From: Haematobia irritans
Taxonomy: Eukaryota > Arthropoda > Insecta > Diptera > Muscidae
Direction: 5' to 3'
Length of the DNA stretch: 64,000 bases
Assembly: GCF_050003625.1 (NCBI RefSeq)
Contig: NC_134400.1
Span: 189,191,726 to 189,255,725, forward strand
The notes beneath the pieces were generated by a model that was given only the letters and a program-made list of their open reading frames with translations, was not told where the DNA came from and ran no database searches. The position numbers and the translations under genes were made by a program. Shown one piece after another: positions 24,237 through 62,600 of the stretch; position 1 is the stretch's first letter; each line of letters begins with the position of its first letter.

Positions 24237-24510
24237 TCACGAAAATAATCCTACTCACCAACTCACGCTCACGAAAATAATCCTACTCATCAACATAAAA
24301 CGCTTAAGAGTTTTACTCATTTACAATTTTAATGATACCTGGGATGTTAAGAGTGTAATAACGCTCTCGATTTGAATAATGCTCGTGATTTCAGACACAT
24401 CGCTAAAGTAAATTACTCACAAAACTATTCGTGAGTCACGACATTTTCGTGCGTGAGTGTGCGTGAGTACAAAATTTCTTTTCGTGAGTGTGCGTGAGCG
24501 TGAGTCCAAA
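24237..24510. repeat. CTCAC/CGTGA-rich element with opposed halves
   Basis: The left side reads CTCACGCTCACG, the right side CGTGAGTGTGCGTGAGCGTG, so the two halves are inverted relative to each other. It resembles the element at 45990-46545 and is probably a truncated copy. Confidence 0.5.
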
Positions 24511-24543
24511 GAATACCGTGTACGCCAAAACTCAGGTCCAGTC

Positions 24544-25098
24544 ATGGTCAAGCAAACGTCTATTTTAGAGGCCCTTCTGACGTCATCGTTCCGGCCCACA
24601 TCACCCTACTATGTGGAAGAGGGAATTAGTGCAAACCCGACACAAGCAGGACGAGAGGCTACTCCACCACTACCCGAACGCCCCGTCATCCTGGCACACG
24701 AACTGCTACACGCCGGGACCATCGACGCGGGAAGCACACCGAACTCTCCGGTAGCACCACGGCCTATCTCTCCCACACTCGTGGAATCATCCGACTCGGA
24801 AGACAACGGGCCGAGACAAAATTCACGGCTGATCCGAACCCGGGAACCGTCCCCCGTCCGACCGCTTGCAAGTGCTGTAGTGGTTCCACCCCAATATGAA
24901 TGCCGCGAAGAACTGTCAGAGGAAGTGTTAAGGGAGCTGCGTCCATATATGAGGTACTGCCTGGCCATACCGAAGGCACGCCGGCCATACAAGCACACTC
25001 TGACTATAGAGGACCAACGGTACCGCATTCTCATCAACCGCCGAGGTAAAATCATCATCCAGTTGCTTCCCCCTCCGCGTTGGAGGAGGACAGTGTAA
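24544..25098 (+). CDS. GC-rich ORF, 184 codons, unknown protein
   Basis: The frame is open from 24457, but the first 29 codons fall in the CGTGA repeat, so the ATG at 24544 (MVKQTSILEALLTSSF) is the better start; the stop is TAA at 25096-25098. The region is near 55% GC against about 30% around it. The middle is Pro/Ser/Glu/Arg-rich and looks disordered (acidic SSDSEDNG near residue 90 from M30). The C-terminal third is basic and looks folded, with RPYKHTLTIEDQRYRILIN and RRGKIIIQLL. No catalytic motif, signal peptide or membrane segment is seen, and I do not recognise the family. No splice or poly(A) signal decides whether it is a single-exon gene, a retrocopy or part of a transposon. Antisense frames over it are by-products of the GC content. 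Confidence 0.45.
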   Translation: MVKQTSILEALLTSSFRPTSPYYVEEGISANPTQAGREATPPLPERPVILAHELLHAGTIDAGSTPNSPVAPRPISPTLVESSDSEDNGPRQNSRLIRTREPSPVRPLASAVVVPPQYECREELSEEVLRELRPYMRYCLAIPKARRPYKHTLTIEDQRYRILINRRGKIIIQLLPPPRWRRTV

Positions 25099-28925: not shown

Positions 28926-29858
28926 AAGGGTGATTTGTTAAGAGCTTGATAACTTTTTAAAAAAAAAAACGCATATAATTTGCAAAATCTCATCGGTTCT
29001 TTATTTGAAACGTTAGATTGGTCCATGACATTTACTTTTTGAAGATAATTTCATTTGAATGTTGACCGCGGCTGCGTCTTAGGTGGTCCATTCGGAAAGT
29101 CCAATTTTGGGCAACTTTTTCGAGCATTTCGGCCGGAATAGCCCGAATTTCTTCGGAAATGTTGTCTTCCAAAGCTGGAATAGTTGCTGGCTTATTTCTG
29201 TAGACTTTAGACTTGACGTAGCCCCACAAAAAATAGTCTAAAGGCGTCAAATCGCATGATCTTGGTGGCCAACTTACCGGTCCATTTCTTGAGATGAATT
29301 GTTCTCCGAAGTTTTCCCTCAAAATGGCCATAGAATCGCGAGCTGTGTGGCATGTAGCGCCATCTTGTTGAAACCACATGTCAACCAAGTTCAGTTCTTC
29401 CATTTTTGGCAACAAAAAGTTTGTTAGCATCGAACGATAGCGATCGCCATTCACCGTAACGTTGCGTCCAACAGCATCTTTGAAAAAATACGGTCCAATG
29501 ATTCCACCAGCGTACAAACCACACCAAACAGTGCATTTTTCGGGATGCATGGGCAGTTCTTGAACGGCTTCTGGTTGCTCTTCACTCCAAATGCGGCAAT
29601 TTTGCTTATTTACGTAGCCATTCAACCAGAAATGAGCCTCATCGCTGAACAAAATTTGTCGATAAAAAAGCGGATTTTCTGCCAACTTTTCTAGGGCCCA
29701 TTCACTGAAAATTTGACGTTGTGGCTCGTTAGTAAGTCTATTCATGATGAAATGTCAAAGCATACTGAGCATCTTTCTCTTTGACACCATGTCTGAAATC
29801 CCACGTGATCTGTCAAATACTAATGCATGAAAATCCTAACCTCAAAAGAATCACCCTT
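28926..29858 (-). mobile_element. DD41D mariner-like transposon with internal deletion
   Basis: Ends AAGGGTGATTTGTT (28926) and, inverted, AAGGGTGATTCTTT (from 29858), flanked by TA on both sides (28924-28925 and 29859-29860). Removing it restores the P1 terminus AACAAGTATATACGGCCG seen in other copies, so the insertion is precise. At 933 bp it is shorter than full Tc1/mariner elements (about 1.3 kb), because of the deletion in the transposase gene. Confidence 0.9.
29032..29745 (-). pseudogene. DD41D Tc1/mariner transposase lacking its DNA-binding domain
   Basis: A 237-codon open frame. Catalytic residues: first Asp in LFSDEAHF (about residue 35), second in WFQQDGATCHT, third in SCDLTPLDYFLWG with 41 residues between second and third, the spacing of the DD41D (rosa-like) group. 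The chain starts MNRLTNE and jumps at once to QRQIFSEWALEKL. Complete relatives have about 100 residues of helix-turn-helix DNA-binding domain in between, so an in-frame deletion is inferred. The open frame has survived, so the insertion is young, but the protein could not bind its ends in the usual way. Could be a source of a dominant-negative catalytic fragment; no evidence of use. Confidence 0.85.
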
Positions 29859-31290: not shown

Positions 31291-32658
31291 AAATGTTAAT
31301 TTTGTAATAACAAGCAACAACCACCAACTTAATTCAATATCGCTCCCTGTTAAATAGCGCTCCAAGCTACTAAACACATATATGTTTATAGGCTATTTCT
31401 AAATTAATATATGTTTGCATCCAAGCATATTATATTTACAAACATTTTATGTCCCACACATAATATGTTCTAACATATTAACATATATGTCCCAAACATG
31501 TTATGCTAGTTTATGAACATTATATGCTTGCACTCAAAAATATTGTGTTTAAAAATTTGTGTTCCAAACATATAACGTTTATAGCCAAACATATGAAAAA
31601 CAGTCTTTTTCATCCGTGTACTAACACCACGTACCAAATTTCAACCGGATCGGATGAATTTTGCTCCTCTAAGTGGATCCGGAGGTCAAATCTGGGGATC
31701 GGCTTATATGGGGGCTATATATAATTATGGGCCGATGTGGACCAATTTTTGCATGGTCATTAGAGAACACATACCAACACCATGTACCAAATTTCAGCCG
31801 GATCGGATGAAATTTGCTTTGGCTCCGCAAGCCAAATCGGGGGATCGGTTTATATGGGGGCTATATATAATTATGGACCGATATGGACCAATTTTTGCAT
31901 GGTTGTTAGAGACCATATACTAACACCATGTACCAAATTTCAGCCGGATCGGATGAAATTTGGTTCTCTTAGAGGTTCCGCAAGCCAAATCGGGGGATCG
32001 CTTTATATGGGGGCTATATATAATTATGGACCGATGTGGACCAATTTTTGCATGGTTGTTAGAGACCATATACTAACACCATGGACCAAATTTCAGCCGG
32101 ATCGGATGAAATTTGCTTCTCTTAGAGCAATCGCAAGCCAAATTTGGGGGTCCGTTTATATGGGGGCTATACGTAAAACTGGACCGATATGGACCAATTT
32201 TTGCACGGTTGTTAGAGACCATATACTAACATCATGTACTAAATTTCAGCCGGATCGGATGAAATTTGCTTCACTTAGAGCAATCGCAAGCCAAATTTGG
32301 GGGTCCGTTTATATGGGGGCTATACGTAAATGTGGACCGATATAGCCCATTTGCAATACCATCCGACCTACATCAATAACAACTACTTGTGCCAAGTTTC
32401 AAGTCGATAGCTTGTTTCGTTCGGAAGTTAGCGTGCTTTCAACAGACGGACGGACGGACGGACGGACGGACGGACATGCTCAGATCGACTCAGAATTTCA
32501 CCACGACCCAGAATATATATACTTTATGGGGTCTTAGAGCAATATTTCGATGTGTTACAAACGGAATGACAAAGTTAATATACCCCCATCCTATGGTGGA
32601 GGGTATAAAAATTAAAGATAAAATGATTATTTAGTTACAATTTATTATTATTAATATT

Positions 32659-37228: not shown

Positions 37229-40200
37229 CGAGGAACTTTATTTTGACAAAATTTTCTATAGAAATATATAATTTTTGTAGAAATAAAATTTTGACAAAAT
37301 TTTCTATAGAATTAAAATTTTGACAAAATTTTCTATAGAAATAAAATTTTGACAAAATATTCTTTAGAAATAAAATTTTGACAAAATTTTCTATAGAAAT
37401 AAAATAGAAAATTTTGCCAAAATTTTGATTTCTAAAGAAAATTGTGTCAAAATTTAATTTCTATAGAAAATGTTGTCTAAATTTTATTTCTATAGAAAAT
37501 TTTGTCAAAATTTTATTTCTATTGAAAATTTTGTCACTTTTATTTCTATAGAAAATTTTGTAAAAATTTTATTACTATAGAAATTTTTGTAAAAATTTTA
37601 TTTCTATAGAAATTTTTGTAAAAATTTTATTTCAAAAAAAAAATTTTCAAAATTTTATTTCTAAAGAAAATTGTGTCAAAATTTTATTTCTATAGAATTT
37701 TTTGTAAAAATTTTATTTCTATAGAAAATTTTGTCAAAATTGTATTTCAATAGAAAATTTTGTCCAAAATTTTATTTCTATAGAGAATTTTTTCGAAATT
37801 TTATTTCTTTAGAAAATTTTGTCAAAATTGTATTTCAATAGAAAATTGTGTCAAAATTTTATTTCTATAGAATTTTTTGTAAAAATTTTATTTCCATAAA
37901 AATTGTGTCAAAATTTTATTTCTATAGAAAATTTTGTCTAAATTTTATTTCCATAGAAAATTGCGTCAAAATTTTATTTCTGTAGAACATTTTGCCAAGA
38001 TTTTATTTCTATAAATAATTTTGTCAAGATTTTATTTCTATAGAAAATTTTGTAAAAATTTTACTTCTACAGAAAATTTGATCAAAATTTTATTTCTACA
38101 AAAATTTTGCCAAATTTTTATATTTCTATAGAAAATTATGTCAAAATTTTATTTCTATAGAAAATTGGGTCAAAATTTTATTTCTTTAGAAAGTTTTGTA
38201 AAAATTTTATTACTATAGAATTTTTGCAAAAATTTTATTTCTATAGAAAATTTTGTTAAAATTTTATTTTTATAGAAAATTTTGTCAAAATTTTATTTTT
38301 ATAGAAAATTTTGTCAACATTTTATATCTATAGAAAATTCTGTCAAAATTTTATTTCTATAAAAAATTCTGTCAAAATTTTATTTCTATAAAAAATTCTG
38401 TCAAAATTAACTATAGCATATTTTATCAAAATTTTATTTCTATACAAAATTTTCTCAAAATTTTGTCAATATTTTTTTTTCTATAGGAAATTTTCCAAAA
38501 TTTTATTTCTATAGAAAATTTTGTAAATATTTTATTTCTATAGAAAATTTTGTAAAGATTTTATTTCTATAGAAAATTTTGTCAAAATTTTATTTCGAAA
38601 GAAAATGTTGTCAAAATGTTATATCTATAGAAAATTTTGTCAAAATTTTATTTCTATAGAAAATTTTGTAAAGATTTTCAGTAGAAAATTTTGTCAAAAT
38701 TTTATTTCTAAAGAAAATTGTGTCCAAAATTGTATTTCTATAGAAAATTTTTACCAAAATTTTATTTCTATAGAAAATTTTGTCGAAATTTTATTTCTTT
38801 AGAAAATTATGTCAACATTTTATTTCTACAGAAAATTGTGTCAAAATTTTATTTCTATAGAAAGTATTGTAAAAATTTTATTACTATAAAAATTTTTGCA
38901 AAAATTTTATTTCTATAGAAAATTTTGTCTAAATTTTATTTTTTCGAATTTTGACAAAATTTTCTAAAGAAATAAAATTTCGACAAAATTTTCTATAGAT
39001 ATAAAATTTTGACAAAATTTTCTAATTAAGAATAAAGTTTTTACAAAAATTTCCACAGAAATAAAATTTAGACAAAATTTTCTATAGAAAATTCAAATTT
39101 AATTTCTATAGAAAATGTTGTCTAAATTTTATTTCCATAGAAAATTTTGTCAAAATTTTATTTCTATTGAAAATTTTGTCACTTTTATTTCTATAGAAAA
39201 TTTTGTAAAAATTTTTTTACTATAGAAATTTTTGTAAAAATTTTATTTCTATAGAAATTTTTGTAAAAATTTTATTTCAAAAAAAAATTTTTCAAAATTT
39301 TATTTCTAAAGAAAATTGTGTCAAAATTTTATTTCTATAGAATTTTTTGTAAAAATTTTATTTCTATAGAAAATTTTGTCAAAATTGTATTTCAATAGAA
39401 AATTTTGTCCAAAATTTTATTTCTATAGAGAATTTTTTCGAAATTTTATTTCTTTAGAAAATTTTGTCAAAATTGTATTTCAATAGAAAATTGTGTCAAA
39501 ATTTTATTTCTATAGAATTTTTTGTAAAAATTTTATTTCCATAAAAATTGTGTCAAAATTTTATTTCTATAGAAAATTTTGTCTAAATTTTATTTCCATA
39601 GAAAATTGCGTCAAAATTTTATTTCTGTAGAACATTTTGTCAAGATTTTATTTCTATAAATAATTTTGTCAAGATTTTATTTCTATAGAAAATTTTGTAA
39701 AAATTTTACTTCTACAGAAAATTTGATCAAAATTTTATTTCTACAAAAATTTTGCCAAATTTTTATATTTCTATAGAAAATTATGTCAAAATTTTATTTC
39801 TATAGAAAATTGGGTCAAAATTTTATTTCTTTAGAAAGTTTTGTAAAAATTTTATTACTATAGAATTTTTGCAAAAATTTTATTTCTATAGAAAATTTTG
39901 TTAAAATTTTATTTTTAGAGAAAATTTTGTCAAAATTTTATTTTTATAGAAAATTTTGTCAACATTTTATATCTATAGAAAATTCTGTCAAAATTTTATT
40001 TCTATAAAAAATTCTGTCAAAATTTTATTTCTATAAAAAATTCTGTCAAAATTTTATAACTATAGCATATTTTATCAAAATTTTATTTCTATACAAAATT
40101 TTCTCAAAATTTTGTCAATATTTTTTTTTCTATAGGAAATTTTCCAAAATTTTATTTCTATAGAAAATTTTGTAAATATTTTATTTCTATAGAAAATTTT

Positions 40201-40666
40201 GTAAAGATTTTATTTCTATAGAAAATTTTGTCAAAATTTTATTTCGAAAGAAAATGTTGTCAAAATGTTATATCTATAGAAAATTTTGTCAAAATTTTAT
40301 TTCTATAGAAAATTTTGTAAAGATTTTCAGTAGAAAATTTTGTCAAAATTTTATTTCTAAAGAAAATTGTGTCCAAAATTGTATTTCTATAGAAAATTTT
40401 TACCAAAATTTTATTTCTATAGAAAATTTTGTCGAAATTTTATTTCTTTAGAAAATTATGTCAACATTTTATTTCTACAGAAAATTGTGTCAAAATTTTA
40501 TTTCGACAAAATTTTCTATAGATATAAAATTTTGACAAAATTTTCTAATTAAGAATAAAGTTTTTACAAAAATTTCCACAGAAATAAAATTTAGACAAAA
40601 TTTTCTATAGAAATAAAATTTTGACACAATTTTCTATGGAAATAAAATTTTGACAAAATTTTCTAT
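37229..40666. repeat. 3.4-kb 30-bp satellite block with polarity flips and a tandem 1.6-kb duplication
   Basis: Polarity runs reverse (37229-37404), forward (37405-38940), reverse (38945-39092), forward (39096-40503), reverse (40504-40666). Bases 37451-39092 and 39096-40611 are near-identical direct copies, including odd variants (AATTAAGAATAAAG, TTTTTTTTTCTATAGG). The second copy has a ~135-bp deletion at the flip and a 4-bp indel at 38408. The LINE follows immediately. Confidence 0.92.
40653..40666. other. Target-site duplication, LINE 3' side
   Basis: ACAAAATTTTCTAT, identical to 45397-45410. As it is also satellite sequence, some of the match could be fortuitous, but both copies abut the element ends exactly. 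Confidence 0.75.
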
Positions 40667-40835
40667 TGTATTGTATTCTTTATTCTTTATATATTTCATT
40701 GACTTAAGACAATATTGCAATATAAATAAAATATTTGAATAAGAATAAATAGTGTAGTTTGTTATGACATTGACTTGGTGTCGTCTGCCATTAATTATAA
40801 TGAAATTGATAACGTATAGATAAACGATTATGCGA

Positions 40836-43800
40836 TTACAAATTGAATTCAGACAGTAACTGATTTCTATACTGCATACATATTTTCAAAAAGCAAGCTA
40901 AACTTTTCCAATTAATGACACATCCGTTAAGAATATTTATTAGTTCATTTTCATTTAGCGACTGCTTGTGGAAAAACATTAAACGGAATTCTTTTAGAGC
41001 TGGACATCGGCCAAGGAAGTGCTGTATATTTTCGATTTCATCAGTGTTACACATGGAACATTTGGGATTTGTGTGTATTTGGAATCTGTTGGAATTAAGT
41101 GCAATCATGTCACCTCTGGCTTTAAATATCCACATCATTTCGTCCTGTGAGAGATGTTCTACGAGGTATGATCCACCAAGTGTAGGTTCTAATTTATTGT
41201 AGAATCTATCGGAATTGATTGCTTTTGCAACTGAATTATTAAATTGCTTTGTATGTAGACTTTGTACAAGTCGCTGAGTGTTTTGTACCCAATTTTGTTT
41301 TGTTAATTGGAGTGTAAAAGGTTCCAAACTATTTTCCCTCGTTAATGTATCCATGGATGTTTTCCAAAATATTCCATGTACCATTACCTTTCTCGCTAGT
41401 AAATTTGGTAATCTATTCTCTCCATAATCATACAAAATTCGTGTTACATACTTCAGATGACTTTGTAGAGTGTACAGATGGCCACATTCTATTCCGGTTT
41501 CTAACATTAGTGCATAAGTGGGTGTGAAGCTGGGTAATTTTAGTATTTTCTTTAAGAAGTATAACGCAAGTTTATCCACCTCATCAAAATGCGTAAAGCC
41601 CCATAATTGAGATCCGTATGATTGTATTGATCTACATATAGCCATATAAATTTTCCATTTTGTTCTCAATGATACATTTCTTCTTGACAAAAAGCAGTTC
41701 CATGTAGCATTGATACTATTTTTTGCCAACTGATTCCTTTCCAGTATCTGTTTTCTGAGTGAAAGTTTTGGGGTGAACGTCAATCCTAAATAGGAATATT
41801 CTGCGGTGTTTATTATTTCATTGCCTTGAAAATACCATTTCTCTTTTGTAGATATCCTTCCTCCTCGGCGGAATATCATTATTTTCGACTTCTCCATATT
41901 AACTTCCATGTTCCAAAGCATACAATAGTTCTCTAGTTTTTGTATCATCCCCTGTAGTACTTCTATCTCGTCTGCTAAAATCACGATATCGTCAGCATAC
42001 ATTAAAAGTCGAATATTATGACTATCAATATTTATACCGCCACCTAAATAGTCATGTAGGTCATTGAGGTATAAGGCAAATAACAGCGGTGATAGCAGAC
42101 AGCCCTGTTTTACACCTGTGTCTGTATCAAAACTATCGGAGAGTTCTTCGCCTGTCCATACTGAGAACGTAGTTTTTTCATATATTTTCTCGATAAATTT
42201 AACAGTTTTTGTTGAGACTCCAATATTATGTAGCTTAAACAGCATAGCTCTACGAGCAACGCGATCAAATGCAGCTCTGAAGTCAACAAAAAACGCATAA
42301 GTTTTCTTATTTCTGTACCAGTTCAAGTGTATAATTGAAGACAAGTTAAATATGTTATCAGCAGTGGAATAATTCTTTCGGAAACCGGCCTGATATTCGT
42401 TTAATTTGTTGTGCTTTTCTGTCCAGTTTGACAATCGATCTGCAACTATACCCATCATTATTTTTGGTAAGCAATTCATAAAAGAAATGCCCCGGTAATT
42501 ACTTGGTTGCGTTTTGTCACCTTTTTTCAGGATAGGATATATAATAGTTTTAATGAACAACATATCTAGTTCACCTTTCTCAAATAATATGTTGCAGGTA
42601 TTTGCAATCTCTTGTAATAATTCATTTGGAGCGTTTTTATAATACTCATAAGGTATACGGTCCTCCCCTGCTGCTTTATTCAGTTTGGCTTTGTTTACTG
42701 CTCTCGTAACATCTAGAATGTCAATTTCTTTATCTAAATCATTATCTTTCCAATACATATGGGCGTATTGGATATCTGACGAAATTTGTGGTTGATTCAA
42801 GAGTTGTTGAAAGTATATTTTTAAATTTTCTGCTGGTATAGGTATACTACCATTTTTTTCGTGATTTCTTAGTTCTCTTACAATCTTCCACCAATCTCGA
42901 GAATCTTTCATCATGTCAAGCTTTTCCTCCAACCTTGAAATGTATTGAACTTTAGCATTTTGACATATTTCTTTATAGTTTTTGTTATATTTTATATATT
43001 TTTCTTTATTTTCATCACTGTTATGCTTTCTGAATTTATTTAAATATTTTAAGGACTTGTTTCTGGCATTAAAGCAGGACAGATTAAACCATTTCTCTTT
43101 TTTTGGAAATAATATTGTTCTTTTAGATATAGCCATATCTGCTTCTTGAATTATGTTGACTATATCGTGAAACGAGTAATTTGATTTTTGCCTTTGTGCT
43201 AAAATGCGTCTTATATTATTTTGATATTCAGCACAAGTTCGTTTATTAAAATTCAGTTTTGGTAAAAGGGTGTTAACGTTTGACGACTTATTTTTCATTT
43301 TAAAAACCATTGATAATGTTATTGGCATGTGATCCGACCAAATTTTTGTAATAACAGTAAAGGAATGTATATGTGACAATAGTTCTTGTGATATTGCACA
43401 GATATCGTTAACAGATGTTCCGACTTGACTAACAAATGTGAACTCACCCATTTCATCTCCAGTTGTCATGCCATTTGCAATTACTAATCCATGATCGTAG
43501 CAAAAGTTAAGAAACTCATTTCCTCTAGAATTTACTTCTTTATCCTTGGATCTTCTTTTCTCTAATCCAGCGTAAAAAGTCTCTTTAAATACATCGTCTA
43601 TGTTCTTTTGCATGGATCCGATCCTCACATTCAAATCGCCTATAATTATGGGGTTTTTCACATCTATTTCTCGCAGTACTGAATCAAGTTCCAGCAATTG
43701 CTCTTTCCAGGTTGGCACTCTCATATAAATTGGAATTATATTGAAATGTATTCCATCAATTTCTAAATTTAATATGCTAATTCCACTTTCTGTTCGATAG

Positions 43801-44114
43801 GTATATCTCAGCCCAAGATTTCGTAAGGTTTTTCTTATGCCAATTAAATAACCTCCTATTCCCCTACCATACTGAGAGTTTCTTGTAGCATATCGCCAAT
43901 ATATTTCAAAATCGCCAAAATATTGCTTAAATTTTTCAGATTTATTGGAGAGAACATGAGTTTCCAAAAGAAAGAATATGTCAAATGTGCTAATGTACTT
44001 AAAAAAGTCGGCATAAAGCATTTTATTTTCTAGGCCGTGGACATTGTATGACAATATTTTTAAAAAGTTACTCTCATTAGTGCATTTGCTTTTATTTATA
44101 TTGCTTATACTTAG
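40836..44114 (-). CDS. LINE ORF2: endonuclease / reverse transcriptase
   Basis: Makes the protein that nicks the target and copies element RNA at the nick. From the TTG at 44054 it is 1072 residues. Endonuclease (exonuclease-endonuclease-phosphatase fold): SYNVHGLEN (Asn 4), LLETHV (Glu 31), IGDLN (Asp 140, Asn 142), SDH (240-242). Reverse transcriptase: LKKGD 509, NYRGIS 519, AGFRK 556, FVDFRAAFD 589-597, GVKQGCLLSP 647, YADD 686-689. A C-terminal zinc knuckle follows: Cys 999, Cys 1002, His 1012, Cys 1017. All catalytic residues are present and there is no stop. No ATG precedes the first endonuclease motif; the first is residue 12, inside it. The frame is open upstream to 44114 (LSISNINKSK...LKIL), where it meets ORF1 in the -1 frame at a slippery heptamer. 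The start given is the first codon after that shift. Confidence 0.93.
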   Translation of the reverse strand, partial: LSISNINKSKCTNESNFLKILSYNVHGLENKMLYADFFKYISTFDIFFLLETHVLSNKSEKFKQYFGDFEIYWRYATRNSQYGRGIGGYLIGIRKTLRNLGLRYTYRTESGISILNLEIDGIHFNIIPIYMRVPTWKEQLLELDSVLREIDVKNPIIIGDLNVRIGSMQKNIDDVFKETFYAGLEKRRSKDKEVNSRGNEFLNFCYDHGLVIANGMTTGDEMGEFTFVSQVGTSVNDICAISQELLSHIHSFTVITKIWSDHMPITLSMVFKMKNKSSNVNTLLPKLNFNKRTCAEYQNNIRRILAQRQKSNYSFHDIVNIIQEADMAISKRTILFPKKEKWFNLSCFNARNKSLKYLNKFRKHNSDENKEKYIKYNKNYKEICQNAKVQYISRLEEKLDMMKDSRDWWKIVRELRNHEKNGSIPIPAENLKIYFQQLLNQPQISSDIQYAHMYWKDNDLDKEIDILDVTRAVNKAKLNKAAGEDRIPYEYYKNAPNELLQEIANTCNILFEKGELDMLFIKTIIYPILKKGDKTQPSNYRGISFMNCLPKIMMGIVADRLSNWTEKHNKLNEYQAGFRKNYSTADNIFNLSSIIHLNWYRNKKTYAFFVDFRAAFDRVARRAMLFKLHNIGVSTKTVKFIEKIYEKTTFSVWTGEELSDSFDTDTGVKQGCLLSPLLFALYLNDLHDYLGGGINIDSHNIRLLMYADDIVILADEIEVLQGMIQKLENYCMLWNMEVNMEKSKIMIFRRGGRISTKEKWYFQGNEIINTAEYSYLGLTFTPKLSLRKQILERNQLAKNSINATWNCFLSRRNVSLRTKWKIYMAICRSIQSYGSQLWGFTHFDEVDKLALYFLKKILKLPSFTPTYALMLETGIECGHLYTLQSHLKYVTRILYDYGENRLPNLLARKVMVHGIFWKTSMDTLTRENSLEPFTLQLTKQNWVQNTQRLVQSLHTKQFNNSVAKAINSDRFYNKLEPTLGGSYLVEHLSQDEMMWIFKARGDMIALNSNRFQIHTNPKCSMCNTDEIENIQHFLGRCPALKEFRLMFFHKQSLNENELINILNGCVINWKSLACFLKICMQYRNQLLSEFNL

Positions 44115-44974
44115 TTTTTTTGATTCATATTGCTCAAAAAGGTATTGTAGCTAATCTCGAGAGCATTAAGTTTATCTCCATATAATTCTTTTAGATGCGT
44201 GTCAGCATTACTTTTTCCACACATTAGTTCTTTGGATCTTGACCAATACATCCATTTATTTCCAATCTTTATGGAGTCATTTCTTACAAAAATTTTATGG
44301 GTTTTATCCAAAGCCAGAATTTCGTCTTTTAGATACATTAATACTTTCTTGTCCTGTTGTTTTATTTCACTTAAATCCTTTTCAATAATAATACTAGATC
44401 CTGCTAGCTTGTTTACATTTTGTAATATCTTCCGCACCATTTCTTCGTCTTGCATTTCTACAATTGTACTCATTTTATTATTTGAAGTGTATAACACTCG
44501 TACTGAAGCAACTTTTACATCGTTGAGTTTCATTGTGTTCTTGAATAAAAACTCAACGGATGCTTTTGGGGATCCTTTTTTCATAACACCCTTTAGAAAC
44601 AAATTTTTGCGCTTGCTCTGTTCAACTAAATGCAAAAGCTGTTTTTGCTCTTTAGATCTTTCCGCTTTTAAGTCTTCTATTTCTCGTCGCAAAGCATCGT
44701 TTTCGGCTTTTAGTTCTTTGAATTTATCATCCATATCGGCTATGTGATTCTTTAGTTCTTCTATATCGTTCTTTGTTGATACGTTCCGTAATTTGTCATC
44801 CATTATAGATTCCATTGATATTTGCATCATTCTCATCAGTTCTGATAATTGTACATTTCCAACAAGCTTTTGTGACTGAGTTGCAGTAGTATCGTCTGGA
44901 GATGTATCAACTAGCATTCTCTTAGCTGATTGAGCAATTTGAATTGCATTTGTTGTAACGGGCGTATTACTCAT
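44111..44974 (-). CDS. LINE ORF1: coiled-coil nucleic-acid-binding-type protein
   Basis: ORF1 proteins of LINEs coat element RNA. The frame is open from 45169 (352 codons), but the ATG at 44974 (MSNTPVTTNAIQIAQ) gives a normal 287-residue ORF1 and is preferred. Residues 62-120 are a strongly charged heptad coiled coil (IEELKNHIADMDDKFKELKA, then ENDALRREIEDLKAE). The stretch RKNLFLKGV (122-130) resembles the first strand of the RRM-like fold that follows the coil in many ORF1 proteins. The C-terminal part is basic with IRVLYT/KKVLMYLKDEIL-like elements; no CCHC knuckle is seen. It ends NMNQKN and TAA (44113-44111), directly after the A AAA AAC heptamer. Confidence 0.88.
   Translation of the reverse strand: MSNTPVTTNAIQIAQSAKRMLVDTSPDDTTATQSQKLVGNVQLSELMRMMQISMESIMDDKLRNVSTKNDIEELKNHIADMDDKFKELKAENDALRREIEDLKAERSKEQKQLLHLVEQSKRKNLFLKGVMKKGSPKASVEFLFKNTMKLNDVKVASVRVLYTSNNKMSTIVEMQDEEMVRKILQNVNKLAGSSIIIEKDLSEIKQQDKKVLMYLKDEILALDKTHKIFVRNDSIKIGNKWMYWSRSKELMCGKSNADTHLKELYGDKLNALEISYNTFLSNMNQKN
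44114..44120 (-). promoter_or_regulatory. Candidate -1 ribosomal frameshift site A AAA AAC
   Basis: Minus strand reads CAA AAA AAC TAA in the ORF1 frame. The heptamer fits X XXY YYZ in correct register and is followed at once by the ORF1 stop. After a -1 slip the next codon is CTA at 44114, the ORF2 frame, open through to residue 1072. No strong stem-loop is obvious in the next 60 AT-rich bases. Confidence 0.65.
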
Positions 44975-45396
44975 TTTAAACAGAGTATTCCTGGCTGGCA
45001 ATGCTGCCTGTTTTTTGTATCGCAACAAATGGTTGGTAACGCTACTAGACTGTAAGCAGCTGATGATCAATTTATTTTGTATGGCAACACTCTTACCATC
45101 CAACCAGTATTCTGTTTGACAGCGAACAGCTGGGTTTTGTTGTGTACATCGATTGAGTGCAAATAACAACGCGGTCTTTCCAGTGAAATTCAGATTTTTT
45201 ATTTTTAATTATTTGTAATAATCCACCGTTTTTACCCCTTGGAGAACAAATGTTGTAACCATCCACAAGACGACACAACTCTGAGTTCCGCCTTAGTGTA
45301 CCGAAAGTGACAATATGCGTAAGAAATCAGATATCTATTTGGAGCCTCGCACAAACACGTCTATCTGTATGTATGTGTTAATGATATCACCCACCC

Positions 45397-45410
45397 ACAA
45401 AATTTTCTAT
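45397..45410. other. Target-site duplication, LINE 5' side
   Basis: ACAAAATTTTCTAT, partner of 40653-40666. Confidence 0.75.
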
Positions 45411-45745
45411 AGAAATACAATACAATGGACACAATTTTCTTTAGAAATAAAATTTTGGACAAAATTTTCTATAGAAATACAATTTTGGACACAATTTTCT
45501 TTAGAAATAAAATTTTGACAAAATTTTCTATAGAAATAAAATTTTGACACAATTTTCTATGGAAATAAAATTTTGACAAAATTTTCTAAAGAAATAAAAT
45601 TTTGACAAAAATTTCTATAGAAATAAAATTTTGACACAATTTTCTTTAGAAATAAAATTTTGACAAAATTTTCCTTAGAAATCAAAATGTTGACAAAATA
45701 TTCTATAGAAATAAAATTTTAACAAAATGTTGGTAGTTTTTTTGG
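45397..45745 (-). repeat. 30-bp satellite, reverse polarity, continuation beyond the LINE
   Basis: About 11 units, then TTGGTAGTTTTTTTGG and GTAGATTATTTTTGGTTTG, AGTGGCATCTGTGA (45771-45806), an inverted version of the MITE-type border at 36706. Confidence 0.9.
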
Positions 45746-49489: not shown

Positions 49490-52400
49490 TTCTGTAGAAA
49501 ATTTTGTCAACATTTTTTTTTTTTCTATAGAAAATTTTGTCAAAATTTTTTTTCTTTAGAAAATTTTGTTAAAATTTTATTTCTATAGAAAATTTTGTTA
49601 ACATTTTATTTCTATAGAAAATTTTGTCAAAAATTTTATTTCCTAAAACATTTTATCAAATTTTTTTTTCTAAAAAATGGCAAAATTTTTTTCTTATAGA
49701 AAATGTTGTCAAAATTTTATTTCTATAGAAAATTTTTTCACAATTTTATTTCTATAGGAAATTTTGTCACAATTTTATTTCTACAAAAAAAATTTTAAAA
49801 ATTTTATTTCTATGTAAAATTTTGTCAAAATTGTTTTTGTCTTTACAAAATTTTGTTAAAATTTTATTTCTATAGAAAATTTTGTCAAAAATTTTATTTT
49901 CTAAAAAATTTTGTCAAAAATTTTATTTTCTAAAAAATATTGCCACATTTTTTTTTCTTATAGAAAATTTTGTCAAAATTTTATTTCTATAGAAAATTTT
50001 GTTAAAATTTTATTGCTATAGAACATTTTTTCCAAATTTTATTTCTATAGGAAATTTTGTCAAAAATTAATTTCTATAAAAACATTTGTCAAAATTTTAT
50101 TTCTATAGGAAATTTTGTCACAATTTTATATCTACAAAAAAAATTTTTTCAAAATTTTATTTCTATAGAAAATTGTGGCAAAATTTTATTTCTATAGAAA
50201 AATTTGTCAACATTTTATTTCTATAGGAAATTTTGTCACAATTTTATTTCTACAAAAAAAAAATTGTCAAAATTTTATTTCTATAGAAAATTTTGTCAAA
50301 AATTTTATTTTCTAAAAAATGTTGTCCAAATTTTTTTCTTATAGAAAATTTTGTCAAAATTTTATTTCTATAGAAAATTTTGGCAAAATTTTATTTCTAT
50401 AGAAAAATGAGTCAACATTTTATTTCTATAGGAAATTTTGTCACATTTTTATTTCTACAAAAAAAATTGTCAAAATTTTATTTCTATAACAAAATTTTGT
50501 CGTCATTTTATTTTTATAAAGAATTTTGTCAAACATTTTTTTTCTACGAAAAACCATTGTCAAAATTTTATTTCCATAGCTTTTTTATCAAAATCTTATT
50601 TTTATAGAAAATTTTATCAAAATTTTATTTCTATAGAAAAATTTGTTAAAATTTTATTTCTATAGAAAATTTTTTCAAAATTTTATTTCTATAGAAAATT
50701 TTGTCAAAAATTAATTTCTATAAAAACATTTGTCAAAATTTTATTTCTATAGGAAATTTTGTCACAATTGTATATCTACAAAAAAAATTTTCAAAATTTT
50801 ATTTCTATAGAAAATTTTGTCAAAAATTTTATTTTCTAAAAAATGTTGTCCAAATTTTTTTCTTATAGAAAATTTTGTCAAAATTTTATTTCTATAGAAA
50901 ATTTTGGCAAAATTTTATTTCTATAGAAAAATTAGTCAGCATTTTATTTCTATAGGAAATTTTGTCACAATTTTATTTCTACAAAAAAAAATTGTCAAAA
51001 TTTTATTTCTATAGAAAATTTTGTTAAAATTTTATTTCTATAGAAAACTTTGTCAAAAATTTTATTTTCTAAAAAATGTTGTCAAAATTTTTTTCTTATA
51101 GAAAATTTTGTCAAAATTTTATTTTTATAGAAAATTTTGTTAAAATTTTATTTCTATAGAAAACTTTGTCAAAAATTTTATTTTCTAAAAAATGTTGTCA
51201 AAATTTTTTTCTTATAGAAAATTTTCTCAAAATTTTAATTCTGTAGAATATTTTGTCAAAATTTTATTTTTATAGAAAATCTTGTCAAAATTTTATTTCT
51301 ATAGAATCATTTGTCAAAATTTTATTTCTATAGAAAATTTTGTCAAAATTTTATTTCTATAGAAAATTTTGACAAAATTTTATTTCTATAGAAAATTTTG
51401 TCAAAATTTTATTTCTATAGAAAATTTTGTCAAAATTTTATTTCTATAGAAAATTTTGTCAAAATTTTATTTCTATAGAAAATTTTGTCAAAATTTTATT
51501 TCTATAGAAAATTTTGTCAAAATTTTATTTCTATAGAAAATTTTGTCAAAATTTTATTTCTATAGAAAATTTTGTCAAAATTTTATTTCTATAGAAAATT
51601 TTGGCAAAATCTTATTTCTATAGAAAAATTTGTCAACATTTTGTTTCTATAGGAAATTTTGTCACAATTTTATTTCTACAAAAAAAAAAAATGTCAAAAT
51701 TTTATTTCTATAGAAAATTTTGTTAAAATTTTATTTATATAGATTTTTTTTTTCAAAATTTTAACAAAATCTTACTACTATAGAAAATTTTGTCAAAACT
51801 TTATTTCTAAAGAAGATTTTGTCAAAATTGTATTATTCTATACAAAATGTTATCCAAATTTTATTACTATCGAAAATTTTGTCAAAATTTTATTTCTATA
51901 GAAGATTTTGTCAAAATTTTATTTCTACAGAAAATTTTGTCAAAATTTTATTTCTATAGAAAATTTTGTCAAAATTTTATTTCTATAGAAAATTTTGTTA
52001 AAATTTTATTTTTATAGAAAATTTTGTCAAAATTTTATTTCTATAGAAAATTTTGTCAAAATTTTATTTCTATAAAAAATGTTGTCCAAAATTTTATTTC
52101 TATAGAAAATTTTAACAAAATCTTACTACTATAGAAAATTTTGTCAAAACTTTATTTCTAAAGAAAATTTTGTCAAAATTGTATTATTCTATACAAAATG
52201 TTATCAAAATTTTATTACTATCGAAAATTTTGTCAAAATTTTATTTCTATAGAAGATTTTGTCAAAATTTTATTTCTACAGAAAAATTTGTCAAAATTTT
52301 ATTTCTATAGAAAATTTTGTCAAAATTTTATTTCTATAGAAAATTTTGTTAAAATTTTATTTTTATAGAAAATTTTGTCAAAATTTTATTTCTATAGAAA

Positions 52401-53202
52401 ATTTTGTCAAAATTTTATTTCTATAAAAAATGTTGTCAAAATTTTATTTCTATAGAAAATTTTAACAAAATCTTACTACTATAGAAAATTTTGTCAAAAC
52501 TTTATTTCTAAAGAAAAATTTGTCAACATTTTGTTTCTCTAGGAAATTTTGTCACAATTTTATTTCTACAAAAAAAAATTGTCAAAATTTTATTTATATA
52601 GATTTTTTTTCAAAATGTTATCAAAATCTTACTACTATAGAAAATTTTGTCAAAATTTTATTTCTATAGAAAATTTTATCAAAATTTTATTTTTCTGTAC
52701 AAAATGTTATCAAAATTTTATTTCTATAGAAAATTTTGTCAAGATTTTATTTCTGTAACAAAATTTTGTCGTCATTTTATTTTCATTTGTCAAAATTTTA
52801 TTTCTACAGAAAATTTTGTCAAAATTTTATTTCTATAGAAAATTTTGTCAAAATTTTTTTTCTACGAAAAACCATTGTCAAAATTTTATTTCTATAGATT
52901 TTTTATCAAAATCTTATTTTTATAGAAAATTTTATCAAAATTTTATTTCTATAGAAAATTTTGTCAAAATTTTATTTCTATAGAAAATTTTGTCAAAATT
53001 TCATTTCTATAGAAAATTTTGTCAAAATTTTATTTCTATAGAAACAGTTGTCAAAAATTTATTTCTATAGAAAATTTTGTCGTCATTTTATTTTTATAAA
53101 GAATTTTGTCAAACCTTTTTTTCTATAGAAAATTTTGTCAAAATTTTATTTCTATAAAAAATTTTTGTCGTCATTTTATTTTTATAGAGAATTTTATTGT
53201 TT
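49490..53202 (+). repeat. 3.7-kb 30-bp satellite array with higher-order structure
   Basis: About 120 forward units. Bases 51312-51600 hold roughly ten nearly identical consensus units. A variant cluster beginning TAACAAAATCTTACTACTAT starts at 51762, 52113 and 52463, a ~350-bp higher-order period. Another cluster (CTAAAAAATGTTGTCC ... GTCACAATTTTATTTCTAC) recurs about 520 bp apart at 50.3 and 50.8 kb. Confidence 0.95.
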
Positions 53203-56680: not shown

Positions 56681-58257
56681 AACAAGTATATAAAGCAGTA
56701 TGTTCGGCCGGGCCGAATCTTAAATACCCACCACCATAAATCAAATATTATATTTTCCTTTGAAAATTTCAGGGGGATTTGAGACAAGCAGACCAGTTCA
56801 ACCAGTACACTTCCCGAAGATAAATTCGAAGATTTTACCTATGAAGACTAGATCAGATTCGGGATTTATAAGAACCATATTTGTTTGAGTTTTAGAGGAA
56901 TCATAAACATCGTATGCAAGTGTGCAAGAAAACGATGAAATACGCCTTGATTTAAAATCTAACATAACATCTGTACATTTTTACCCCCATTATTTAAATG
57001 ATTAGCAGAAGTAAAATCTGGAAAGTATAATTCAGTTTCAAGCAATTTTCATTATCAGGGCACATGGACCGATATTCTCAATATTCGACATAGCATTTTA
57101 TGGTCCTACAATACCTCTAAATTTCCAATTTGAGGCAAGTTGCATAAAAACTACGGTTTCTATAAGCCTCTTGGGCTTAAAATCTGGAGATCGGTCTATA
57201 TGGGGCCAATATAAAAACATTGTCCGATACTCATCATTTTCAGTAATCCTCTTTAGGGTTTTAAAATACCACTAGATTTCTAATTTCAGGCAAATTGGAT
57301 AAAAACTACAGATTTTAGACGCCCAAGAAGTAAAAACTGGAGATCGGTCAATATGGGGGCTATACCAAAACATGGACCGATACCCACCATTTTCGGCACA
57401 CCTCTTTATTGTTCTAAAATACCTCTAGATTTCCAATTTCAGGCAAACTGGATAAAAACTACGGATTCTATAAGCCCAAGACCCCATATCGGGAGATCGG
57501 TCTATATGGGCGATATACCAAAACCTGGACCGATACTCACCATTTTTAGCACACCTCTTTATGGTCCTAAAATACCTCTAGATTTCAAATTTCAACCAAA
57601 TTGGATAATAACTACGGATTCTAGAAGCCCAAGAAGTAAAATCGGGAAATCGGCCAATATGGGGACTATACCTAAACATCAACCGATAGTCACCATTTTT
57701 GGCACACCTCTTTATGGTGCTAAAATACCTCTAGATTTCCAATTTGAGGCGAATTGGATAGAAACTATCGATTCTAGAAGCCCTAGAAATATAATCGGGA
57801 GATCGGTCTATATGGGAGCTATACCAAAACATGGACCGATACTTACCATTTTTGGCACACCCCTTTGTGGTCATAAAATACCTCTAGATTTCTAATTTCA
57901 GGCAAATTGGATAGAAACTAAGGTTTTTATAAGCCCAAGACCCCAAATCGGGGGGTCGGTTTATATGGGGACTATATCAAAACCTGGACCGATATAGACC
58001 ATCTTCGAACTTGACCTGCCTGCAAATAAAAGACGAGTTTGTGCGAAATTTCAGCACGATTGTTTTATTATTGAAGACTGTAGCGTGATTACAACAGACA
58101 GACAGACGGACAGACGGACATGGCTATATCGTCTTAGAATTTCTCCCTGATCAAGAATATATATACTTTATATAGTCGGAAATCGATATTTCGATGTGTT
58201 ACAAACGGAATGACAAACTTATTATACCCCCGTCACCATTCTATGGTGGTGGGTATA
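56681..58257 (+). mobile_element. P2-family element (copy c), complete
   Basis: AACAAGTATATAAAGC at 56681, hairpin TTCGGCCGGGCCGAA, TACCCACCACCATAAATC. It has about five units (180-codon frame 57353-57895 begins MGAIPKHGPI), (GACA/GACG)n at 58098-58120 and ends TATGGTGGTGGGTATA. Inserted in reverse satellite and followed after two or three bases by P2-d. Confidence 0.9.
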
Positions 58258-58259
58258 AA

Positions 58260-59675
58260 AACAAGTATATACAGCACTAAGTTCGGCCGGGCCGAATCTT
58301 AAATACCCACCACCATGAACCAAATATTAGGGTTTCCTTTGAAATTTCAGGAGGGCTTGAGCACTTGAGAACACTTCCCGAAGATAAATTTAAAGATTTC
58401 ACCTATGAGGACTATATCAGATTCTGCATTTATAAGAACCATTTTTGTTTGAGTTTTAGAGGAATCATTAACATCTCTTGTAAGTGTGCAAGAAAATTAT
58501 AAAATAACGTCTTGATTTGAAATCTTAAATCTGTAGAAGTAAAATCTGGAAATTTTACATTGAGTTTCAAGCAATTTTCATGATCAGTGCGCCTTCTACA
58601 CCCTCAAGAAGTGAAGTCGGTCTATATGGAGGCATTACCAAATGAACCGATAAAAACTTAATCCGACACACGACTTTGTGAGCCTAAAATACCAGAATAT
58701 TTACAATTTCAGGCAAATCAGATAAAAACTACGGTTTCTAGAAAACCAAGGAGTTAAATCGGGAGATCAATCTTATGGGGGCTATACTAAAATATGGACC
58801 GATACTCACCGTTTTCGGCACACCTCTTTATGACCCGAAAATACCTCTAGATTTCCAATTTCAGGCAAATAGGATAAAAACTTCGGATTCTAGAAGCCCA
58901 AGAAGTAAAATCGGGAAATCGGTCTATATGGGGGCTATACCCAAATATGGACCGATACTCACCATTTTCGGCACACCTCTTTATGGTCCTAAAATACCTC
59001 TAGATTTCCAATTTCAGACAAATTGTATAAAAACTACGGTTTCTATAAGCCCAAGACCCCAAATCGGGAGATCGGTCTATATGGGGGCTATACCAAAATA
59101 TGGACCGATACTCACAATTTTTGGCACACGTATTTGTGGTCCTACAATACCTCTAGATTTCCAATTTCAGGTACATTGGATAAAAACTGCGGTTTTTATA
59201 AGCCCAAGAAGTAAAATCGGGAGATCGGTCTATATGGGGGCTATACCAAAACATGGACCGATACTCATCATTTTTGGCACACCTCTTTATGGTCATAAAA
59301 GACCTCTAGATTTAAAATTTCAGGCAAATTGGATAAAAACTACGATTTCTATAAGCCCAAGACCCCAAATCTGGAGGTCGGTTTATATGGGGACTATATC
59401 AAAACCTGGACCGATATAGCCCATCTTCGAACTTGACCTGCCTGCAGACAAAAGACGAGTTTGTGCAAAATTTCAGCACGATTGCTTCATTATTGAAGAC
59501 TGTAGCGTGATTACAACAGACAGACAGACAGACGGACATCGTTATATCGTCTTAGAATTTCTCCCTGATCAGGAATATATATATTTTATATAGTCGGAAA
59601 TCGATATTTCGATGTGTTACAAACGGAATGACAAACTTATTATACCCCCGTCACCATTCTATGGTGGTGGGTATA
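58260..59675 (+). mobile_element. P2-family element (copy d), complete, abutting P2-c head to tail
   Basis: Same order of parts. About 95% identical by eye to P2-a at 15.5 kb over the first 400 bases, closer than to its neighbour P2-c, so the tandem arose by insertion at a P2 end and not by local duplication. The 214-codon frame 58775-59419 is four in-phase units. Confidence 0.9.
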
Positions 59676-62600
59676 ATAAAATTTTTTATAAAAATAAAAT
59701 TTTGACAAAATTTTCTATAGAAATAAAATTTGTACAAAATTTTCTGTAGAAATAAAATTGTGACAAAATTTTCTATAGAAATAAAATTTTAACAAAATTT
59801 TTTATAAAAGTAACATTTTGACAAAATTTTCTATAGAAATAAAATTTTGACAAAATTTTCTATGGAAATAAAATTTTGGAAAAATTTTTTATAGAATTCA
59901 AAATTTTCTATAGAAATAAAATTTTGACAAAATTTTCTATAGAAATTAAATTTTTACAAAATTTGTTATAGATATAAAATTTCTACAACAAATTTTCTAT
60001 AGAAATAAAATTTTCAGAAAATTTTCTATAGAAGTAAAATTTTTACAAAATTTTCTATAGAAATAAAATTTTTACAAAATTTTCTATCGAAATAAAATTT
60101 TTACAAAATTTTCTATCGAAATAAAATTTTTACAAAATTTTCTATAGACATAAAAGTTTGACAAAATTTTCTATAGAAATAAAATTTTGACAAAATTTTC
60201 AATAGAAATAAAATTATGACAAAATTTTCTATAGAAATAAAATTTTGACAAAATTTTCTATAGAAATAAAAATTTGACAACATTTTTTATAGAAATAATA
60301 TTTTGCCAAAATTTTCTATAGAAATAAAATTTTTAAAAATTTTTCTATAAAAATAAAATTTTTAAAAAAATTTCTATAGAAATAAAATTTTGACAAAATT
60401 TTGTATAGAAATAAAATTTTGACAAAATTTTCTATGGAAATAAAATTTTGCAAAAATTTTCTATTGAAATAAATTTTTACAAAAATTTTCGATTGAAATA
60501 AAATTTTAATCAATGCAAGATTATAGAAATCTTGCATTGACCTGCATATGAATATTGTACGAGGACAGTAGGCAGGAGGATGAGGAAGCCACTCTTAATA
60601 CATCAACTGAGTATAATGCACCGAGAAGAACAACATTTAATTTGTGAAAAAAAGAAATTTATAAATTTTCTATAGAAATCAAATTTTGACAAAATTTTCT
60701 ATAGAAACAAAATTTTGACAAAATTTTTTTGGAAATCAAATTGTGACAAAGTTTCCTATAGAAATATTATTTTGCCAAAATTTTCTATAGAAATAAAACT
60801 TTTACAAAATGTTCTATAGAAATAAAATTGTAACAAAATTTTTTATAGAAATAACATTTTTACGAAATTTTCTATAGAAATAAAATTTTTACAAAATTTT
60901 CTATACAACTAAAATTTTTACAAAATTTTTTATACAAATAAAATTTTGCCAAAATTTTCTATCGAAACAAAATTTTGACGAAATTTTCTATAGAAATAAA
61001 ATTTTGACAACATTTTCTATAGAAATAAAAATTTTACAAAATTTTCTATCGAAACAAAATTTTGACTAAATTTTCTATAGAAATAAAATTTGTACAAAAT
61101 TTTCTGTAGAAATAAAATTGTGACAGATTTTTCTATAGAAATAAAATGTTGACAAAATTTTCTATAGAAATAAAATTTTTACAAAATTTTCTATAGAAAT
61201 AAAATTTTTACAAAATTTTCTATAGAAATAAAATTTTTACAAAATTTTCTATAGAAATAAAATTTTTACAAAATTTTCTATAGAAATAAAATTTTTACAA
61301 AATTTTCTATAGAAATAAAATTTTTACAAAAATTGTTTATTGAAATAAAATTTTGACACAGTTTTTCTTATAGAAATCTTGCATTGACCTGCATATGAAT
61401 ATTGTACGAGGACAGTAGGCAGGAGGATGAGGAAGCCACCGTTAATACATTAATTGAGTATAATGCACCAAAAATAACAACATATAATTTGTGAAAAAAA
61501 GAAATTTATAAATTTTCTATAGAATTAAAATTTTGCCAAAATTTTCTATAGAAATACGATTTTTACAAAATTTTCTATAGAAATAAAATTGTGACAAAAT
61601 TTTCTATAGAAATAAATTTTTTACAAAATTTTCTATAGAAATAAAATTGTGACAAAATTTTCTATTGAAATAAAATTGTGACAAAATTTCCGATAGAAAT
61701 AAAATTTTGACAAATTTTCTATAGAAATAAAATTTTAACAAAATTTTTTATAGAAATAAAATTTTGACAAAATTTTCTTTAGAAATAAACTTTTGACAAG
61801 TTTTTCTATAGAAATTAAATGTTTACAAAATTTTCTATAGAAATAAAATTTTGACATAATTTTCTATAGATATAAAATTTTAACAAAATTTTTTATAGAA
61901 ATAAAGTTTTTAAAAAATTTTCTATCGAAATAAAATTTTGATAAAATTTTCTATAGAAATAAAATTTTGACAAAATTTTCTATAGAAATAGAATTTTGAC
62001 AAAATTTTCTATAGAAATAAAATTTGTACAAAATTTTCTGTAGAAATAAAATTGTGACAAAATTTTCTATAGAAATAAAATTTTGACAAAATTTGCATTA
62101 GAAATAATATTTTGACGAAATTTTTTTTAGAAATAAAATTTTTACAAAATTTTCTATAGAAATAAAATTTGTACAAAATTTTCCGTAGAAATAAAATTTT
62201 GACATTCTTTTCTATAAAAATAAAATGTTGACAAAATTTTCTTCCAAATAAAATTTTGCAAAAATTTTCTATTGAAATAAAATTTTTTATACAAATCTTG
62301 CATTGACTTGCATATGAATAATGTATGAGGACAGTAGACAGGAGGATGGAGAAGCCACCCTTAATACATCAATTGAGTATAATGCACCGAGAATAACAAC
62401 ATATAATTTGTGAAAAAAGAAATTGATACATTTTCTATACAAATAAAATTTTGCCAAAATTTTCTATTAAAATAAGAAATTGATACATTTTCTATAGAAA
62501 TAAAATTTTGACAACATTTTCTATAGAAATAAAATTTTGACAATTTTTGTTTAGAAATAAAATTTTGACAAATGTTTTTGTAGAAATAAAATTGTGACAA

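Follow-up and report, generated by a model that had tools for sequence, protein, structure and literature searches.

A conserved A_AAA_AAC heptamer at the ORF1/ORF2 junction of a Haematobia irritans LINE suggests −1 ribosomal frameshifting

Introduction

How does a LINE make its second protein when ORF2 lies one base back from ORF1 and the first ATG of its frame comes too late to keep the Asn of the endonuclease? This question is raised by an element on the minus strand of a stretch of 64,000 nucleotides of Haematobia irritans DNA (contig NC_134400.1; the whole stretch is called the window), whose junction had been read in an initial annotation as a site of −1 frameshifting. Overlapping ORFs in some LINEs, such as R1 and EhLINE2, have prompted suggestions of frameshifting. 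The production of the second protein in two-ORF LINEs is an old question, which the reviews consulted usually answer with reinitiation; among the papers listed by searches of the open-licence literature, none reported that a LINE joins ORF1 to ORF2 by frameshifting or by readthrough. The junctions collected here from one genome favour, with a probability of about 0.93, the reading that ORF2 would be made by −1 ribosomal frameshifting at A_AAA_AAC as a minority ORF1-ORF2 fusion.

The element and its junction

The features of the element are collected in Table 1. Two marks of a −1 site are present, namely an X_XXY_YYZ heptamer in register and an early stop in the 0 frame with an open −1 frame. 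When the coordinates were rechecked, the junction proved to be as the initial annotation had described it: ORF1 ends CAA AAA AAC TAA with the heptamer in slip register, the frame one base back continues CTA AGT ATA AGC without a stop into LKILSYNVHGL, and no ATG lies between the upstream TAG of that frame and the motif. The claim that the first ATG would remove the Asn was also borne out, the Asn codon lying upstream of it, so that no reinitiation-type ATG was found in the ORF2 frame before the endonuclease of this element. Analogy with L1/APE makes the Asn of SYN presumably the catalytic residue of the endonuclease, and the YN/FN motif recurs among ORF2 relatives. Gene models begun at the first ATG cut off this residue; an example is the public model P0001 (LOC142242833, Haematobia irritans), which begins exactly at that late Met (44021-44019) and therefore is without the Asn.

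Table 1. Positions in the window of the LINE and of the features of its ORF1/ORF2 junction
Feature	Position	Strand	Basis or content
Full-length two-ORF LINE copy	40667..45396 (ends approximate)	minus	alignment with copies L003, L005 and L006; target-site duplications
Target-site duplication, 5′ copy, ATAGAAAATTTTGT	45397..45410	.	flank comparison
Target-site duplication, 3′ copy	40653..40666	.	flank comparison
ORF1, 287 aa, ends ...NQKN stop	44111..44974	minus	coiled coil, then RRM-like and C-terminal domains
Nearest upstream stop in ORF2 frame, TAG	44151..44153	minus	this frame is open over the 30 nt that precede the heptamer
Slippery heptamer A AAA AAC, in 0-frame register for −1 frameshifting	44114..44120	minus	sequence reading
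ORF1 stop TAA, abutting the heptamer	44111..44113	minus	sequence reading
ORF2 as read after the putative slip, 1092 aa	40836..44114	minus	endonuclease, reverse transcriptase (RT), C-terminal zinc-binding motif
Asn codon of SYN (LSYNVHG)	44043..44045	minus	endonuclease motif
First ORF2-frame ATG after the upstream stop	44019..44021	minus	downstream of the Asn codon

In the AlphaFold model of ORF1 (pLDDT 77), a low-confidence N-terminal segment (residues 1-38 under 50) is followed by a long helix, then by an RRM-like fold and lastly by a C-terminal domain. Its nine top PDB matches, the best with E 1.9e-7, are all structures of human LINE-1 ORF1p. ORF2 matches PF00078 (E 2e-36) and PF14529 (E 7e-8), with PF13966 under its cut-off. 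The element has the features of a non-LTR retrotransposon (LINE): an endonuclease together with an RT, target-site duplications and a 3′ simple-repeat tail, which is AATACAATACA. It sits inside an array of AATTTTGTCAAAATTTTATTTCTATAGAAA-type repeats, and its duplication is weak evidence by itself because the target is a repeat of the ATAGAAAATTTTGT motif. A copy on a different chromosome, L003, is identical to it over 4731 aligned bp and has a target-site duplication of its own, and two further copies are 99.96% (L005, 4652 bp) and 99.64% (L006, 4720 bp) identical. These three copies have shared flanks of 15 bp (L003), 12 bp (L005) and 10 bp (L006) that are different from those of the window copy. 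The window LINE is a recently mobile element, and its frame arrangement is therefore that of a working lineage.

Survey of junctions in the genome

All DNA evidence on junctions comes from a single genome. A whole-genome search with the ORF2 of the window returned at least 43 places, of which 37, including the window copy (L004), hold the junction; L007, L008, L009, L016, L017 and L028 are truncated at the 5′ end and lack it. The 37 copies fall into 19 families at 80% nucleotide identity in ORF2. A search with P0039 added 12 places, seven with a junction of the heptamer type (L047-L053), three with one of another kind (L054-L056) and two without a junction (L046, L057). A search with the ORF2 of L058, in which new matches starting deep inside the query were left out, added 10 places that reach the ORF2 start, three of the heptamer type (L070-L072) and seven of the other kind (L064-L069, L073). 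The heptamer type amounts to 47 junctions in 25 families, the six added families being set apart by their junction sequence only; L051 and L053 were counted as copies of the L045 family, L052 as a copy of L050 and L071 as a copy of L070. Pairwise ORF2 identity among 18 families (L013 left out) is 40-65%, with a median of 46%, and the sequence that flanks the junction is poorly conserved among families.

Conservation of the heptamer

The anatomy of the junction is conserved at the nucleotide level across the 25 families. A_AAA_AAC stands at the end of ORF1 in the −1 slip register in 25/25 families and is present at 45 of the 47 junctions, and an ORF2-frame ATG between the upstream stop and the endonuclease motif is absent in 22/25 families, in agreement with the expectation of the initial annotation that both traits would hold when genomic copies were aligned. 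One of the two junctions without the heptamer, L015, belongs to a decayed copy in which the run is two A's short (five left). The other, L043, has apparently suffered a deletion and still has an ORF2 open over 1079 codons; the heptamer is present in L044, a copy of the same family. The annotation had named as counter-examples an ATG before the endonuclease and a destroyed heptamer beside an intact ORF2. A search for such cases found none in most families; the former occurs in L029, L030 and L036 and the latter in L043.

The codon before AAA AAC is TCA in 16 families, CAA and GCA in two each, and AAA, CCA, TTA, CTA and ACA in one each, so that the residue varies while the third base is A in all 25. 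The codon after the heptamer is TAA in 12 families, TAG in eight, TGA in three and TTT in two; the stop abuts the heptamer in 23/25 families and follows one codon later, as TAA after TTT, in the remaining two. When 23 families were aligned, the heptamer and the following T (AAAAAACT, eight columns) were the only invariant columns of 58, every other column having at most 1.1 bits. ORF2 is −1 relative to ORF1 in 25/25 families, and no stop occurs in its frame among the 574 codons between heptamer and endonuclease (25 families), about 41 being expected in the 383 codons of 19 families. In L021, L047 and L049 the ORF2 frame opens just 3 nt upstream of the heptamer, which is therefore the only plausible crossing point. 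Some families (e.g. L020, L022, L029, L036 and L042) have other in-register X_XXY_YYZ strings in the 150 nt that precede the endonuclease, as expected in A+T-rich sequence; A_AAA_AAC at the end of ORF1 is the only slippery-type heptamer in register that all families have in common.

Codon choice at the site is equally restricted. The Asn codon is always AAC, which makes up about one third of Asn codons in 19 families, and the joint chance of the third-base A, the AAA and the AAC would be about 1e-21 given the codon usage of these 19 families, if the choices were independent. When codons were drawn at random according to the usage of each of the same 19 families, the final two registers of ORF1 contained A_AAA_AAC with p ≤0.00175 per family and any X_XXY_YYZ with p ≤0.019 per family; the median share of trials per family that placed A_AAA_AAC next to the stop was 0.14%. 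Lys-Asn pairs elsewhere in ORF1 and ORF2 (16 families; L013, L014 and L040 left out) are written NNA AAA AAC in 4/108 cases, against 8.6 expected (Fisher, 25/25 versus 4/108, p about 3e-23). These statistics overstate independence because the families are related. Chance A-richness as the source of the heptamer is ruled out by the codon choice and by the Lys-Asn pairs elsewhere. The KN is unlikely to be conserved as a feature of the protein, since all families write it with the same two codons and the eight kinds of codon found in front of it share their third base.

The same protein end is met in public assemblies. Eight of nine ORF1 relatives (P0074-P0082) end in KN and one in KNQ, with differing residues before it (QKN in four, SKN in three, TKN in one and PKNQ in one; P0075 and P0076, both QKN, look like one protein). 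Such ends fit A_AAA_AAC followed by a stop, or by one codon and then a stop. The closest protein is from H. irritans, and ORF2 relatives also occur in Stomoxys and Teleopsis genomes. Of eight ORF2 relatives that are extended at the N-terminus, P0007 and P0017 show KKL, as AAAAAAC read in the −1 frame would give, and P0018, P0023, P0033, P0034, P0035 and P0040 lack it; this count is weak either way, since the start of each protein was set by computation and the site may lie upstream of it. No relatives were found in viral contigs; bacterial genome contigs yielded two LINE-like pieces with no 5′ junction, which are probably contaminants.

Competing explanations

Termination-reinitiation, in which the ribosome would stop at the end of ORF1 and restart on ORF2 nearby, usually at a non-AUG codon, is an improbable explanation of this junction. 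It has been described for SART1 of the silkworm and L1 of mammals (PMC5972666) and is discussed for both there and in PMC2881922; its caliciviral version tolerates changes of the start codon (PMC5972666). The three families in which ATG precedes the endonuclease (two ATGs in L029, one each in L030 and L036) are ones where reinitiation is therefore conceivable, and all of these codons lie downstream of an intact heptamer. UGGGA, a TURBS core motif, occurs at most 120 nt upstream in 5/25 families but is missing in the other 20, and in 15/25 families none of ATG, CTG, GTG, TTG and ACG is found in the ORF2 frame before the endonuclease. Further, the distance between heptamer and endonuclease varies from about 24 to 135 nt, and reinitiation does not predict that every family should have an A_AAA_AAC in register, an ORF2 in the −1 frame and a frame open back to the heptamer.

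Less probable still is a change at the RNA level, by transcriptional slippage or by RNA editing, in which the A run would gain or lose A's and the frames would be fused without any slip of the ribosome. A run of six A's is indeed present at the junction (seven or eight in a few families), but it is short, and slippage of this kind needs neither the C at position 7 nor the register, both of which are invariant in the 23 aligned families. Genomic copies are reverse-transcribed from RNA, yet they keep the A run at 45 of 47 junctions; the run is shortened only in the decayed L015 and deleted in L043. Finally, a frame offset seen in a single copy of a transposon is usually the result of decay, and the offset might have been put down to decay or sequencing error in a dead copy. 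This reading is refuted by matching copies: the same junction is found in the full or near-full copies L003, L005 and L006, with differing duplicated flanks, as in the window copy, to which L003 is identical over its aligned length, and the arrangement recurs in every one of the 25 families.

Downstream sequence and the adjoining stop

Folding energies gave no support to a downstream stem as the stimulator of −1 frameshifting. In the 19 families, the folding energy of the sequence downstream of the junction, calculated for nested folds and not for pseudoknots, was not below that of shuffled sequences in windows of 50, 80 or 120 nt, with mean z of +0.51, +0.90 and +0.65, respectively. A z below −2 was obtained for L040 only, and only in the shortest window. 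The sequence is A+T-rich and has little from which a pseudoknot could be made. A structured RNA is the less likely second part of the signal; this role more probably falls to the stop that adjoins the heptamer. The stop stays in place while the codon that serves as stop changes among families, a pattern that suggests help from slow termination; the two TTT families indicate that the stop need not be immediate.

A related lineage with an in-frame stop

The junctions of the other kind comprise seven types at 10 loci (L054/L056, L055/L073, L064, L065/L067, L066, L068 and L069). At 10/10 loci ORF2 continues in the frame of ORF1, with just one stop between the two. The stop is UAG at nine of them and UAA in L068, a decayed copy. 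It is followed by CAR-YY at all 10 loci, so that UAG-CAR-YY is complete in 9/10; the hexamers after the stop are CAACCA, CAATTA (CAATCA in L073), CAATTT, CAATTC and CAGTTA, and the final A of CAR-YYA is present at five loci. No in-frame ATG was found between the stop and SYN at any of the 10 loci. L061-L063 are extensions of L054-L056 in which the upstream ORF1 can be followed back to an ATG without a stop. In L058 (346-3576) the open frame of ORF2 starts at the base next to the stop and runs for 1076 codons.

In this lineage, readthrough of the stop codon is the probable route to ORF2. The type I readthrough signal is UAG-CAR-YYA (PMC3542737). The related LINE families resemble the type I readthrough of tobamoviruses in carrying UAG-CAR-YY at the ORF1/ORF2 border; they differ from it in that the last A is found at just half of the loci, and the likeness extends to the related lineage only, not to the window element. 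Part of the conservation of CAR may reflect a conserved Gln. In a quick tree of 64 rows, built from public proteins and copies from one genome and with SH-aLRT as its only support measure, L058 and L059, the only readthrough rows included, lie outside the frameshift families; the public proteins placed between them are represented by protein sequence alone. L013 stands on a false long branch in this tree because the copy is decayed, and its position was ignored.

Proposed mechanism and comparison with known systems

From the nucleotide pattern of the junction, translation by −1 frameshifting would proceed as follows. Ribosomes translating ORF1 would arrive at NNA AAA AAC. For the majority the codon that follows would be a stop, at which they would release the ORF1 protein. 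On A_AAA_AAC a minority would move one base backwards, decode CUN next and continue through a short linker into the endonuclease-RT. The product would be a fusion protein of about 1379 aa (287 from ORF1 + 1092 from ORF2), made at a low ratio, in which the ORF2 enzyme forms a C-terminal extension.

Some beta- and deltaretroviruses use −1 frameshifting at A_AAA_AAC for gag-pro. The LINE junction resembles these retroviral sites in the heptamer and its register, and in an arrangement where the polymerase would be a minority extension of a structural, RNA-binding protein. In contrast to retroviruses, the window element is a LINE: it has no LTR, neither a protease nor an integrase domain was found in it, and no downstream structure was detected at its junction, where the stop abuts the heptamer in most families. 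A_AAA_AAC is listed among the heptamers most prone to shift on mammalian ribosomes (PMC5009743). HeT-A, a telomeric non-LTR element of Drosophila, is reported to need frameshifting for Gag (PMC5009743). HeT-A would resemble the window LINE in being a non-LTR element with frameshifting, but its shift serves the Gag gene and it encodes no RT, whereas the shift in the window LINE would join ORF1 to ORF2. SART1 and L1 are similar to the window LINE in having two ORFs, an ORF1 with the fold of L1 ORF1p and an ORF2 with endonuclease and RT; the window LINE differs from them by its slippery heptamer and, in its families, by the usual lack of a start codon.

Taken with the related lineage, the clade seems to have two recoding routes, either of which would yield a fusion of ORF1 and ORF2. 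A broader reading of the same sequences is somewhat favoured: the whole LINE clade may make its polymerase as an ORF1-ORF2 fusion and may have swapped the recoding signal, between a structure-free −1 frameshift, with an abutting stop and slow termination in place of a pseudoknot, and UAG-CAR-YY readthrough. Retroviruses use frameshifting and stop readthrough as two solutions for gag-pol. If the broader reading is true, non-LTR elements would have reached this pair of retroviral solutions independently, and a limited dose of the tethered fusion enzyme would itself be under selection. The heptamer, conserved at the nucleotide level, and the readthrough-like signal in relatives point to gag-pol-style recoding, with a tethered fusion, in some LINEs.

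Other features of the window

Many AATTTTGTCAAAATTTTATTTCTATAGAAA-type repeat arrays occur in the window; among the best 40 rows they include 45459-45717, 51232-52494, 60045-62023, 37798-40461 and others. Repeats of units of about 50 codons, recognised by eye, are found at 5339-6013, 9842-10891, 13400-14083, 31782-32345, 57353-57895 and 58775-59419; the units are open in one frame and are of two types (MGAIYNYGP... and MGAIPKHGP...). A proline-rich ORF of 213 aa lies on the plus strand at 24457-25098. On the minus strand, at 29032-29745, there is an ORF of 237 aa, WFQQDGATCHTA, which we take to resemble a mariner-type transposase.
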